Positions 2,216 to 54,878 of a stretch of DNA of 64,000 bases are shown here, in pieces (within the stretch, counting starts at the first letter, position 1; each line of letters starts with the position of its first letter). Below the pieces are notes generated by a model. That model ran no database searches, had not been told where the DNA came from, and saw only the letters and a list, made by a program, of their open reading frames with translations. The DNA is from Bacteroidales bacterium. GTDB lineage: Bacteria > Bacteroidota > Bacteroidia > Bacteroidales > F082. Position numbers and translations under genes: made by a program. The DNA is taken from NCBI GenBank assembly GCA_024400305.1, contig JAKSMX010000003.1:1-64000 (forward strand), in the 5' to 3' direction.

Positions 2216-2224
2216 TACTTTTGC
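2216..2224 (+). promoter_or_regulatory. -7 promoter element for SRP RNA
   Basis: TACTTTTGC sits four bases before the first base of the SRP RNA terminal stem, as expected for a Bacteroidota -7 element. Confidence 0.65.
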
Positions 2225-2227
2225 ATC

Positions 2228-2329
2228 GGGTAAGTCTTATACGACCAGCTCCTGTCAAACTCCCCCAGGACCGGAAGGTAGCAAGGGTAGATGGTTGAGC
2301 GGTGCGATATAAGTAGCTTACCCTTTTTT
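2228..2329 (+). ncRNA. ffs: Small bacterial signal recognition particle RNA (4.5S type)
   Basis: The 5' end GGGTAAG (2228-2234) pairs with CTTACCC (2317-2323), closing a hairpin of about 96 bases, followed by six T residues as terminator. The internal part carries the Ffh-binding apical region: AGCTCCTGTCAAACTCCCCC, then CAGGACCGGAAGGTAGCAAGGG, in which the GGAAG-type tetraloop and the asymmetric and symmetric loops of the SRP RNA are recognisable. The product binds Ffh and directs co-translational targeting to the membrane. The next coding region starts only eight bases after the T-run. Confidence 0.95.
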
Positions 2330-26962: not shown

Positions 26963-27025
26963 ATTGCAAATCAATATTTTAATTTCAAAGAAGCATCCGA
27001 TTCGGAGAATTTCAAGAAATCTTGT

Positions 27026-27103
27026 GACTCAATTCCTACGGCAGCATTACCTGCATCAGGTTTTGAGGGTATAATCTCAGTCCGCGAGGACACCCCTTTG
27101 ATA
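27026..27103 (-). promoter_or_regulatory. TPP riboswitch (THI element) controlling thiM-thiE/tenA-thiD
   Basis: On the minus strand the sequence holds GGGGTG (near 27092-27097), CTGAGATTATACCC (27066-27079) and CCTGATGCAGGTAATGC followed by CCGTAGGAA, the conserved arms of the TPP aptamer. TCAA/TTGA at 27098-27101 and 27028-27031 close the P1 helix. It lies between the promoter and thiM. Confidence 0.93.
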
Positions 27104-27113
27104 TTTTGACGGT

Positions 27114-52002: not shown

Positions 52003-52542
52003 ATGCCAGCAAAAATCAGATTACAGAGACATGGTAAAAAGGGACAGCCTTTCTATCACATTGTAATTGCAGACGGTCGCGCACCGCGTGATGGTAGATT
52101 TATCGAAAAAATCGGAACTTACAATCCGGTTGCAAATCCAGCTGAGATCAGTCTTAATTTCGACAAGGCTCTTGATTGGTTAAACAAGGGCGCTCAGCCA
52201 ACAGACACTGTCCGTTCAATCCTTTCGCACAAAGGCGTTTTGCTCAAGAAACACCTTCTCGTCGGTGTAAAGAAAGGCGCATTGACAGCTAAACAGGCGG
52301 AAGTCAAATTCCAGGCATGGATGAAAGAAAAAGAGGCCAAGGCAGCAAACGACAACAAGATTTCAGCGGAAAAGAAGAAAGCTGACATGAAAGTCAGACT
52401 CGAAGCTGAAAGCAAAGTCAACGCAGCACGCGCTGAAGTGATCGCCCAGAAGAAGGCCGAACTCGCAGCAAAGGCGGCGGAAGAAGCAGCGGCAAAGGCA
52501 GCAGAAGCGGCAGCTACAGAGGAGCCGGCAGCCGAAGCCTAA
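52003..52542 (+). CDS. rpsP: 30S ribosomal protein S16 with C-terminal Ala/Lys/Glu extension
   Basis: 179 residues; the conserved S16 core is residues 1-82 ([39 protein letters not shown]). Residues 83-179 add a charged helical region ([34 protein letters not shown]) and an Ala-rich end ([22 protein letters not shown]). Long S16 tails are common in Bacteroidota and probably lie on the ribosome surface. S16 helps assemble the central part of 16S rRNA. The gene stands alone with a promoter, a hairpin leader and a strong terminator, without the usual rimM-trmD-rplS neighbours. Confidence 0.95.
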
Positions 52543-52599: not shown

Positions 52600-52656
52600 G
52601 TTTCTTTAAATCCAAAAATTTATTTACAATTTTTTGTGTGTATTTGACAATTTTTG

Positions 52657-52665
52657 TATTTTTGC
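52657..52665 (+). promoter_or_regulatory. -7 promoter element for the structured RNA / XRE gene
   Basis: TATTTTTGC with TTTGAC at 52643-52648 as the -33 element, a close match to the Bacteroidota consensus; the transcript would start near 52671. Confidence 0.7.
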
Positions 52666-52734
52666 ACACGAAAAAAAAGAAAACAAGGAACAATTAAACT
52701 GTAATAAAAGACACATAATAAAAGCATAAAGCTG

Positions 52735-52895
52735 TATTCTTTCGACTCTGGAAGTTTGGCCACTAATAGAGGTGTTTGTAGAAAGAATAAGTTCGATGCT
52801 CACGCTCAAAGCGTGAGCCTAACTTAATCGCTACAAACAAGGCCCTGGCCAAACGCCTCAGAGTGGTGAGTTGAAGTTAAGTTTCACGCTTTTTT
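52735..52895 (+). ncRNA. Long structured RNA (6S-like rod or attenuator) before the XRE gene
   Basis: Fold A is a rod with internal loops: 52745-52750/52859-52864 (6 pairs), 52754-52762/52846-52854 (9), an 11 + 7 base bubble, 52774-52781/52831-52838 (8), 52788-52793/52821-52826 (6) and 52798-52806/52810-52818 (9, loop CAA). Fold B pairs AGCGTGA (52810-52816) plus AACTTAA (52821-52827) with the uninterrupted strand 52877-52890 and ends in six T residues (52890-52895), a terminator. A third helix, TATTCTTTC (52735-52743) with GAAAGAATA (52781-52789), excludes parts of fold A. A rod with a central bubble resembles 6S RNA; two exclusive folds before a coding gene resemble an attenuator. Confidence 0.6.
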
Positions 52896-52914: not shown

Positions 52915-53151
52915 ATGGAATATAACATCGGACAGGCAGTCACAGACTATTTGAGGGAAAACAAAATAAGGCAGGTAATGTTGGCCCAGATGCTAAATTA
53001 TGATCCGGGCAACTTGAGCCGCCTGTTAAGAAAAAACAGCATGAGCCTTGACATGATCGTAAAAATATCGGTTGCGCTCAAGTACAATTTTCTACGTGAA
53101 GTTTCATGCAAGCTCACCGAGGAGATTTCGAAGGCGGAACATGATTCTTGA
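52915..53151 (+). CDS. Small XRE/Cro-like helix-turn-helix protein
   Basis: 78 residues. The whole protein is a five-helix lambda-repressor type domain: IGQAVTDYLRENKIRQVMLAQMLNYDPGNLSRLLRKNSMSLDMIVKISVALKYN, with the helix-turn-helix at about residues 20-42 and a short basic/acidic C-tail (KLTEEISKAEHDS). It has no second domain, so it probably binds DNA as a dimer, or acts as an antitoxin-like regulator. It starts 20 bases after the T-run of the structured RNA and ends six bases before the convergent YolD-like stop codon. A regulatory link to the polymerase pair next to it is an inference from position alone. Confidence 0.85.
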   Translation: MEYNIGQAVTDYLRENKIRQVMLAQMLNYDPGNLSRLLRKNSMSLDMIVKISVALKYNFLREVSCKLTEEISKAEHDS

Positions 53152-53157
53152 TCTGTT

Positions 53158-53370
53158 TCATGAACTTTCATCGGCGGCATCGACGTTGAAACTGTCAACA
53201 TGTTGCTGTTCGGTTTGCCTGATTGCGTCCCCGTGACCGTTGAGGGCGGCGAACGGTGCGAACTGCGCGGCGCGGGCGAGCATCGACATGCGCGGATGCG
53301 CCGACGAGACGTGATGCGGCAGGTCGATGATGTCGGAATAGTCGTTTTCGGTGATGTTTTTTTCGTTCAT
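53158..53370 (-). CDS. YolD-like protein
   Basis: 70 residues. The segment DLPHHVSSAHPRMSMLARAAQFAPFAALNGHGDAIRQTEQ holds the HPRMSxxxRAAQFAPFAAL signature of the YolD-like family that accompanies UvrX/YqjW-type Y-family polymerases in Firmicutes and some Bacteroidota. It is thought to be a UmuD-like accessory factor, although without the protease domain of UmuD. The ATG overlaps the polymerase stop by four bases (ATGA), so both are translated from one message. The high Ala, His and Arg content and G+C-rich codons differ from nearby genes and suggest transfer. Confidence 0.85.
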   Translation of the reverse strand: MNEKNITENDYSDIIDLPHHVSSAHPRMSMLARAAQFAPFAALNGHGDAIRQTEQQHVDSFNVDAADESS

Positions 53371-54878
53371 GCCTTGTGCCCTCCAATCTGGTTGTTGCGT
53401 TCGATGGCCGTCGCTCCATCTTCAAAATTGATGCCTTTGAGAATGGCGTTCTTTCCGAATCTCTTCTTCAACTCGATAATGGTCTCCTGCATCTTATGCT
53501 CTTTTGCGAGAGTCTCCTCCTCCACCATGTTTTTCCTTTCCAATTCGTCAAAATCCGTGAAAAGGTCGATGTTTGCAGATGCAGCCCTGCGGTCGGCTTT
53601 TGACTCGTCAGTGACATGGTTCGCCGTCACGTTGATGTATCTGACCAACAGATCTTGATTAATGATTTTGTCGTAAAGACTCATCGTCGCGTCGATGATG
53701 AGCCGCGATGATGAAGTCTGACGGTCGAGGTTCACGGTGCCGTGCGCGTGCTTCGGTGTCCTACGGCCATAGCGGTCAATTGTGGTTTCACCATTGAATT
53801 TGGCACGAATATTGGGATTTGCAAGAGATTCGGCATCGTAACTTATAGTGAGGACAATCTGGTCGGCGACAAGGTGTTTTTCAACCAAGTTCAACGCAAT
53901 TGCATCGGTCATTTCCTGAACGACGACACGGGCTTTCCGGGTGTCGTAAGCGCACGACAGAACCTGTCCGCTGCTGATGGAATTGGTTTCCGGCTTGTAC
54001 TTTTTGATACAATCAATGGTACACGGCTCCCAGCCCCAGGCGTGGTCGATAATCAGTTCCGCATTGATACCGAATATCTTGTATAACATCTCCTCATCAT
54101 TGACCGACTGGCGTGCGACGTCGCCCATCGTGTGCATTCCGTAATATTCGAGCTTCTGCGCTATTCCCCGTCCGATTCGCCAGAAATCAGTCAACGGACG
54201 ATGACTCCAGAGTTGCTTCCTGTACGACATCTCGTCAAGTTCGGCGATACGTACTCCGTCGGCATCAGGTGGCAAATGTTTTGCAACGATGTCCATGGCT
54301 ATTTTGCAAAGATACAGATTCGTGCCGACCCCCGCCGTCGCAGTGATTCCGGTGGTATTCAGAACATCGCGGATCATCGTCATGGCGAGCTGGTGTGCGG
54401 TCATTTTATGAAGCGCGAGATAATCGGTCGCGTCGATGAAAACCTCGTCTATTGAATATACGTGGATGTCATCGGCGCTAATGTATTTCAGGTAAACGTT
54501 GTAAATACGTGTGCTGTACTGAATATAGTATGCCATCCGCGGCGGAGCGACGATGTAGTCAACTGCAAGGGTCGGATTCTTTTTTAGTTCGATGTCGGAA
54601 ACGGATTTTCCCGTCAATTTCCTGTACGGCGCTTCGAGCTTCCTGCCGTAATTGACGTAATCGACACGCTGTATGACTTCAAAAAGCCGCGGTCTTCCCG
54701 GTATCCCGTAAGACTTCAGCGACGGCGAGACCGCAAGGCAGATCGTTTTCTCGGTTCTGCTCTTATCTGCGACCACAAGATTGGTCGTCAACGGGTTAAG
54801 TCCTCGCTCGACGCACTCAACGGAGGCGTAGAACGACTTGAGGTCAATGGCGATATATGTGCGAGAATCCGATTCCAA
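53367..54878 (-). CDS. Y-family DNA polymerase (UvrX/UmuC-like)
   Basis: 503 residues. Palm motifs are AIDLKSFYASVEC near residue 10, with the catalytic Asp, and VYSIDEVFIDAT near residue 142 with the second acidic pair. TATAGVGTNLYLCKIAMD near 177 and FWRIGRGIAQKLEYYG near 225 belong to the fingers and helix-hairpin-helix. The C-terminal region (little finger and a Lys/Glu coiled end) carries SPbeta UvrX/YqjW features rather than DinB, and there is no RecA/beta-clamp tail that I can be sure of. It copies past DNA damage with low fidelity. It has its own promoter and is joined to the YolD-like gene. No LexA-type box was recognised. Confidence 0.9.
   Translation of the reverse strand: MESDSRTYIAIDLKSFYASVECVERGLNPLTTNLVVADKSRTEKTICLAVSPSLKSYGIPGRPRLFEVIQRVDYVNYGRKLEAPYRKLTGKSVSDIELKKNPTLAVDYIVAPPRMAYYIQYSTRIYNVYLKYISADDIHVYSIDEVFIDATDYLALHKMTAHQLAMTMIRDVLNTTGITATAGVGTNLYLCKIAMDIVAKHLPPDADGVRIAELDEMSYRKQLWSHRPLTDFWRIGRGIAQKLEYYGMHTMGDVARQSVNDEEMLYKIFGINAELIIDHAWGWEPCTIDCIKKYKPETNSISSGQVLSCAYDTRKARVVVQEMTDAIALNLVEKHLVADQIVLTISYDAESLANPNIRAKFNGETTIDRYGRRTPKHAHGTVNLDRQTSSSRLIIDATMSLYDKIINQDLLVRYINVTANHVTDESKADRRAASANIDLFTDFDELERKNMVEEETLAKEHKMQETIIELKKRFGKNAILKGINFEDGATAIERNNQIGGHKA

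Follow-up and report, generated by a model that had tools for sequence, protein, structure and literature searches.

The window, i.e. the whole stretch of 64,000 nucleotides from a Bacteroidales contig that was analysed here, contains an RNA region of about 160 nucleotides (at about 52734-52895) that is flanked by rpsP, the gene of the 30S protein S16 (52003-52542), and by a small XRE/Cro-type helix-turn-helix gene of 78 amino acids (52915-53151). These genes and the elements of the leader are all on the forward strand. rpsP lies 5' of the leader RNA and is followed by two promoter-like boxes, TTTGACA in the -33 region (52643-52649) and TATTTTTG in the -7 region (52657-52664), which together (52643-52664) we take to be a promoter of the Bacteroidota type. 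Further downstream come P0, a small hairpin of the form AGC-N5-GCT (52723-52733, with AGC at 52723-52725 and GCT at 52731-52733), then the 5' strand of the anti-rod helix H_alt (TATTCTTTC, 52735-52743), and a rod composed of the helices P1 to P5 (52745-52864) with the conserved joints GAAA/RCC and GGY. The 3' strand of H_alt (GAAAGAATA, 52781-52789) overlaps P3 and the 5' strand of P4, and the P5/P4 3' strand of the rod (52810-52827) is at the same time the 5' strand of a terminator, the 3' strand of which, AAGTTAAGTTTCACGC with six T residues, occupies 52875-52895. The long helix of this terminator joins about 52811-52826 with about 52875-52889, the T6 run is at 52890-52895, and there are 19 bases between the run and the ATG of the XRE gene (52915). 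An earlier note on this DNA had named a promoter (52657-52665), a five-helix rod, a 5' helix, a long helix and the T6 run, and all of these elements are present in the sequence.

The XRE protein matches the Pfam families HTH_3 and HTH_26 below the curated cut-off, and no likeness to solved structures was found by sequence at E<=0.1. Convergent with its gene, on the reverse strand (53158-54878), are a 70-residue open reading frame (ORF) without a Pfam match and a Y-family DNA polymerase (impB/mucB/samB) of 503 residues. The window also contains a TPP riboswitch (27016-27107, reverse strand, 68.5 bits) and a Bacteroidales small SRP RNA (2221-2327, forward strand, 98.5 bits). Inspection of the window leader by eye gave nothing suggestive of a leader peptide or of a type III toxin-antitoxin system. 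The minimum free energy of the leader is -70.2 kcal/mol as compared to -45.5 (sd 4.6) for shuffled sequences (z = -5.41, none of 200 shuffles being equal).

A BLAST search over related genomes with the window DNA gave one other real copy, which lies in the same genome, shares 76% identity with the query over 241 bases, has a similarly low folding energy against shuffles (z = -4.97) and is likewise followed, after about 20 bases, by a small XRE gene. The two XRE proteins of this genome are 42% identical, as opposed to the 76% identity of their leader DNA. The remaining BLAST matches were mostly short, AT-rich pieces of promoter regions, and the tally of 59 out of 100 genomes that included them was set aside. 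Loci of XRE relatives in the genus added further copies. Covariance models were built from five close copies (R1), from 33 copies (R2) and from 100 copies (R3). The genome of the window yields 12 matches, two of which are antisense mirrors, leaving 10 copies. Among 99 genomes of the genus, R1 finds the RNA in 81 (E<=0.05); R2 finds it in 112 out of 295 genomes sampled from the order (E<=0.001), spread over 74 of 177 genera, with at most ten candidates scored per genome. At the level of the phylum, where at most seven candidates were scored per genome, R2 matches 45 of 392 genomes at E<=1e-4 and R3 matches 65, the other 327 being without a match; 17 of these 65 belong to other classes, and most of them score lower (76.9 bits at best).

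The copy number at E<=1e-5 ranges from 0 to 26 in 16 genomes, 15 of which have at least two copies; these genomes were picked by hand, many of them for their high copy number, and the counts may include a few antisense mirrors. In fragmented assemblies several copies (in G075, G255, G233 and G160) are found close to the ends of contigs, at a distance of a few hundred bases or less, which is how repeats behave. A DNA pattern search in named genomes returned 108 stretches, and R2 matches all 80 that were examined (L141-L220). The titles of these 80 carry Bacteroidales names, except for five that are given as Bacteroidia only and one as Flavobacteriales, and ruminant guts are a frequent source. 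Plasmid BLAST with three queries found nothing, nor did phage BLAST with one of them; a fourth query led to five plasmid-labelled records with the RNA, from Bacteroides ovatus, B. finegoldii, Parabacteroides distasonis and Phocaeicola massiliensis, all five matched by R2 (44.7-59.4 bits). In viral contigs a strict pattern gave no stretches and two other patterns gave 2 and 30, of which 2 out of 32 match the model at E<=0.01; the 30 that do not match serve as a modest negative control for the model.

Covariance-model alignments were used for the comparison because MAFFT misaligned the rod in the divergent set (RNAalifold on the MAFFT alignment gave the terminator helix only). Alignment A9 has 100 rows, one per locus, with an effective number of 75 at 80% identity, and the results based on it refer to the family outside a divergent XRE subgroup (L042, L048, L050, L054, L058-L061). 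These alignments follow the rod model, and the counts for the rod are favoured by this: in the 33 rows of alignment A6 91.5% of the cells are paired, with two-sided changes at 34 of 40 rod pairs, and in A9 93.1% of 3820 cells are paired, with two-sided changes at 38 of 40. The covariation score of the rod in A9 is 0.702, against 0.221 for shuffles, and it does not exceed 0.123 when the partners are slid. A mutual-information screen was also run that ignores structure, though the underlying alignment uses the rod structure; of its 23 highest-ranking column pairs, 22 belong to the rod. Further rod pairs follow below these ranks, interspersed with correlations around P2 that do not correspond to pairing and resemble a subfamily signal. 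Two terminator pairs, 130-230 and 135-222, come up at ranks 48 and 49, and each of them is pairable in 97% of the weighted rows.

There are also letters conserved outside the helices, which the rod helices do not explain: the joint between P1 and P2 has GAAA and RCC, and that between P2 and P3 has GGY. GGY (A9 columns 168-170) and RCC (182-184) flank the 3' strand of P2; they match each other at the third pair in 56 out of 73 rows, and the pair is at rank 56 in the mutual-information screen. It is possible that they form an extra small hairpin of the stop state, a pairing that would not easily coexist with P2. As for variability within the rod, the copies L085 (1501-1651) and L100 (1501-1647) have nearly identical flanks, P1, P2 and tail, and wholly different P3-P4 arms, which looks as if the arm had been replaced as a block.

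The two helices that compete with the rod were analysed by a swap test, in which the duplex of each copy was compared with duplexes formed with other copies less than 65% identical (100 copies, 2000 permutations, kinship ignored), the tip and tail segments being taken from the columns of the rod model. For the terminator, i.e. the tip strand with the tail, the native mean is -19.41 kcal/mol and the swapped mean -14.22, the native duplex being better in 98 of 100 copies. The corresponding values for H_alt are -6.18 and -3.43 kcal/mol, with the native duplex better in 90 copies and not better in 10. None of the 2000 permutations was as good in either case, and the three pairings used as controls showed no signal (1607, 1811 and 990 permutations as good). 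An earlier swap test with 33 rows had the native duplex better in 33 cases for the terminator and in 28 for H_alt. With respect to P0, the stretch from -28 to +6 folds better than the mean of its own letter-shuffles in 84 out of 100 members.

The strand shared by rod and terminator can be followed position by position. Six columns of the P5 3' strand form base pairs with both the rod partner and the tail partner in 585 of 599 cells, and there are concerted changes at all three positions (A-U-A in 47 rows, G-C-G in 17), next to triplets in which the rod partner may be unchanged (U-G-C in 60 rows, U-A-U in 13). Comparison and energy show that the rod on the one hand and H_alt with the terminator on the other compete for the same bases, and that compensating changes preserve both. 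The three mutually exclusive helices proposed in the earlier note are thus all maintained by evolution, and the covariation among homologues that it asked for was found in 100 copies, strongly for the rod and with both competing folds preserved. Of 144 members, after removal of seven antisense rows, 130 have TTTT at their end and 14 lack it. A stable helix (mean duplex energy -19.4 kcal/mol) followed by a T-run ahead of a gene, as expected of an intrinsic attenuator, is seen together with a conserved alternative structure on the same bases.

In terms of energy, the rod is more stable than the best terminator-holding fold in 98 of 100 copies (median difference 9.7 kcal/mol), so the terminator should be rare at equilibrium, and a stop would need either a kinetic delay or a factor. 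Folding of successively longer prefixes of the window RNA predicts H_alt in transcripts ending at 52789 to 52834, and rod helices replace it at 52844; within the folding model this is a kinetic delay of the required sort. H_alt takes up one or more bases of P3 in 91 copies out of 100 and two or more of P4 in 66; the terminator engages three or more bases of the P4 3' strand in 96. In the fold of the terminator state at least four H_alt pairs are present in only 77 of 100 members.

The position of the RNA in the genomes is directional. The promoter-like sequence TAN2-3TTTG occurs upstream in 72 of 99 members; block-shuffled windows give a mean of 19 (maximum 30), and the reverse strand gives 20. 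Out of 88 loci, 70 have an ORF of at least 80 residues that starts no more than 160 nucleotides 3' of the RNA, as opposed to 19 in the reverse direction, so that 18 loci have no such close downstream ORF, and in none of the 88 is the RNA overlapped by an ORF of at least 120 residues. The DUF805b RNA (RF02914, of the Rfam type cis-reg) lies in some loci 26-118 nucleotides 3' of the rod and before the gene; it reaches gathering score in L093, L192 and L168 and stays below it in L080, L077 and L075, so that one leader can contain two cis elements. It is a separate motif of about 35 nucleotides, and the rod is outside its model.

A crude sort of 139 downstream ORFs, in a sample partly seeded by the XRE search and after removal of 13 near-duplicate proteins and one doubtful ORF (L149), gave 80 signal-peptide-like proteins, 17 restriction-modification enzymes or methylases, 9 small XRE proteins and 33 others; the signal-peptide rule is a crude one that also fires for 119 of 335 background ORFs of at least 200 residues. 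The Pfam, PADLOC and NCBIfam tallies (first 25 families each) agree in listing DNA methylases, HSDR_N, BspA-type leucine-rich repeats, CsgG, the TonB plug, ECF sigma factors and HTH domains. The same switch precedes secreted or surface proteins, restriction-modification enzymes and small XRE regulators. The assignment of the leader to the XRE regulator in the earlier note is too narrow, given the share of small XRE genes among the downstream ORFs. Of the XRE-type loci, 40 were inspected and 14 carry the RNA; these were recognised by eye, and all 14 were found by a covariance model as well. XRE-specific regulation as a general rule was rejected, as the R1 matches in the genus lie mostly before other kinds of genes in the loci that were read. 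In three annotated plasmid-labelled records the RNA is found before a dihydrofolate-reductase-family or deaminase gene and beside RteC, primase, topoisomerase or integrase genes, neighbours of a kind known from conjugative elements. A similar arrangement was noticed in L272, L278, L279 and L280, with the RNA before a dihydrofolate-reductase-family or deaminase gene and with RteC, topoisomerase or integrase on the element or, in L272, an rteR sRNA nearby.

Taken together, comparison and folding models make it probable that the RNA is a cis-acting transcription attenuator and one member of a phylum-wide family, in which the rod would be the read-through form and H_alt with the terminator the stop form. 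Of the two interpretations offered in the earlier note, a terminator/antiterminator leader and a 6S-like RNA, the former is strongly supported by the conservation of all three competing helices. We envisage that the promoter, about 70 bases upstream, starts the leader and that H_alt forms first, holding a part of the P4 5' strand. The P4 3' strand would thereby be left free as a toehold, at which the late 3' tail could start the terminator and open P5, and once the terminator has formed RNA polymerase would stop at the T-run. If, on the other hand, P3, P2 and P1 zip first, the rod would close P4 and P5, the terminator would be blocked and transcription would enter the gene. The choice may be set by a putative factor, which could be a protein, a small molecule or the speed of RNA polymerase. 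Since the joints GAAA/RCC and GGY around P2 are conserved outside the helices, they are the most likely sites at which such a factor would act.

One special case of the attenuator is a riboswitch for a metabolite or a second messenger built on this platform. The two-state anatomy and the joint letters conserved beyond the rod helices would fit such a device, but the joint conservation is modest for an aptamer and no common metabolic pathway is visible among the downstream genes, which argues against an ordinary metabolite riboswitch, and we consider this version unlikely. A different possibility is that the RNAs are a family of trans-acting small RNAs, for which the terminated leader would be the product and read-through would be secondary. 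An own promoter, a strong terminator and many paralogues per genome would agree with this, and wholly different P3 arms in otherwise similar copies such as L085 and L100 would suit distinct partners. However, the preference for an ORF downstream on the sense strand speaks against it, and a plain small RNA would not need a rod that is kept by selection as a blocker of the terminator, so that we think it quite unlikely. The RNA could also be a mobile or repeated DNA hairpin (REP- or MITE-like) that folds as RNA by accident. It is multi-copy, some copies are near contig ends in fragmented assemblies, and the antisense strand also matches weakly; the latter is explained by the rod being a palindrome, and direction-specific placement, promoter enrichment and strand-specific pairing of the terminator are not expected of such an element, which makes this explanation very improbable.

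It is worthwhile to compare the switch RNA with known families. Rfam 15 was run over the window and 65 loci (9, 18, 20 and 18), and no family reached gathering score over the rod. The window has nine sub-threshold matches at E<=10, the best of which is RUF4 on the antisense strand (28.6 of 55 bits, E = 0.0012); RUF4, TtnuCD8, rli22 and the other weak matches were taken as chance. Leu_leader overlaps the rod of L093, again below gathering (25.8 of 50 bits, E = 0.38). Among the matches of the members there is no 6S family (at E<=10 for the window and at E<=0.1, 1 and 1 for the loci scans).

The 6S RNA (RF00013) and 6S-Flavo (RF01685) do resemble the switch RNA in having a long rod with an internal loop. 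6S RNA is a stand-alone gene present in one or a few copies, whereas the switch RNA has 10 copies in the genome of the window, is located in leaders and possesses an alternative terminator. RF00013 gives no match in this genome, while the same model matches 5 of 14 control genomes. The search of the genome with RF01685 gave no match and the control genomes were silent too; the window RNA has no RF01685 match at E<=10. Even though the long rod with its asymmetric central loop and the common Bacteroidota type of the promoter might suggest an RNA that binds RNA polymerase via rod and bubble, the lack of RF00013 matches in this genome and of 6S families in the Rfam scans of members, the up to 26 copies per genome in leaders and the conserved alternative terminator make the 6S-like half of the original proposal the least probable reading of all.

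The nearest relatives in terms of architecture are the terminator/antiterminator leaders, i.e. riboswitches and protein-dependent attenuators, e.g. of the T-box, ANTAR, trp and pyr types. The likeness consists in mutually exclusive helices in a 5' leader, one of which is an intrinsic terminator ahead of a gene. The differences are that the antiterminator is a rod of about 120 nucleotides whose tip strand is the terminator strand itself, that there is a third covarying helix at the 5' side, that the genes belong to the surface, restriction-modification and regulator classes, and that no Rfam family is reached at gathering score.

In the literature, Fremin and Bhatt (2021, PMC8040213) reported HTH_XRE as the commonest domain directly downstream of candidate RNAs in human microbiomes (15 candidates), as well as palindromic, terminator-like candidates of 80-132 bp in Bacteroidetes. 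The passages compared contain no switch model of this kind, and overlap with its candidates is possible. For Flavobacterium psychrophilum, 64 structured 5' regions have been described, a number of them without Rfam matches (PMC9723704); the passages compared describe no common switch family. The motif Flavo-1 named in the same paper is not among the Rfam matches in 20 further loci of the phylum sample. The map of B. thetaiotaomicron (PMC7366714) contains long 5' UTRs, riboswitches and a validated 6S RNA. This switch is not described in the passages of these three papers that were compared. The large Bacteroidota RNA switch family is apparently undescribed, and partial earlier detection is possible. 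We regard it as a new family within a type of device that is already known; it is exceptionally large and has good comparative support.

We also speculate about what such a family might be for. A new phylum-wide class of three-helix switches might constitute a common layer of control over the accessory genome of Bacteroidota, i.e. surface proteins, restriction-modification systems, small XRE regulators and the cargo of conjugative elements, in which every copy would respond to a single general signal, for instance a second messenger or the state of RNA polymerase, that is sensed at the conserved joints around P2. This is a tentative suggestion, possible rather than probable. If the attenuator reading is true, the standard RNA library would lack a kind of RNA switch of which genomes in an important phylum of gut and environmental bacteria carry as many as 26 copies. 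It would then provide a direct handle on the timing of surface-protein and DNA-modification expression in Bacteroidota, and the trigger would become a question that can be addressed with one RNA, one reporter and one in vitro transcription assay. A single strand that tracks two partners in evolution would, moreover, be a clean model for the study of co-transcriptional RNA folding.
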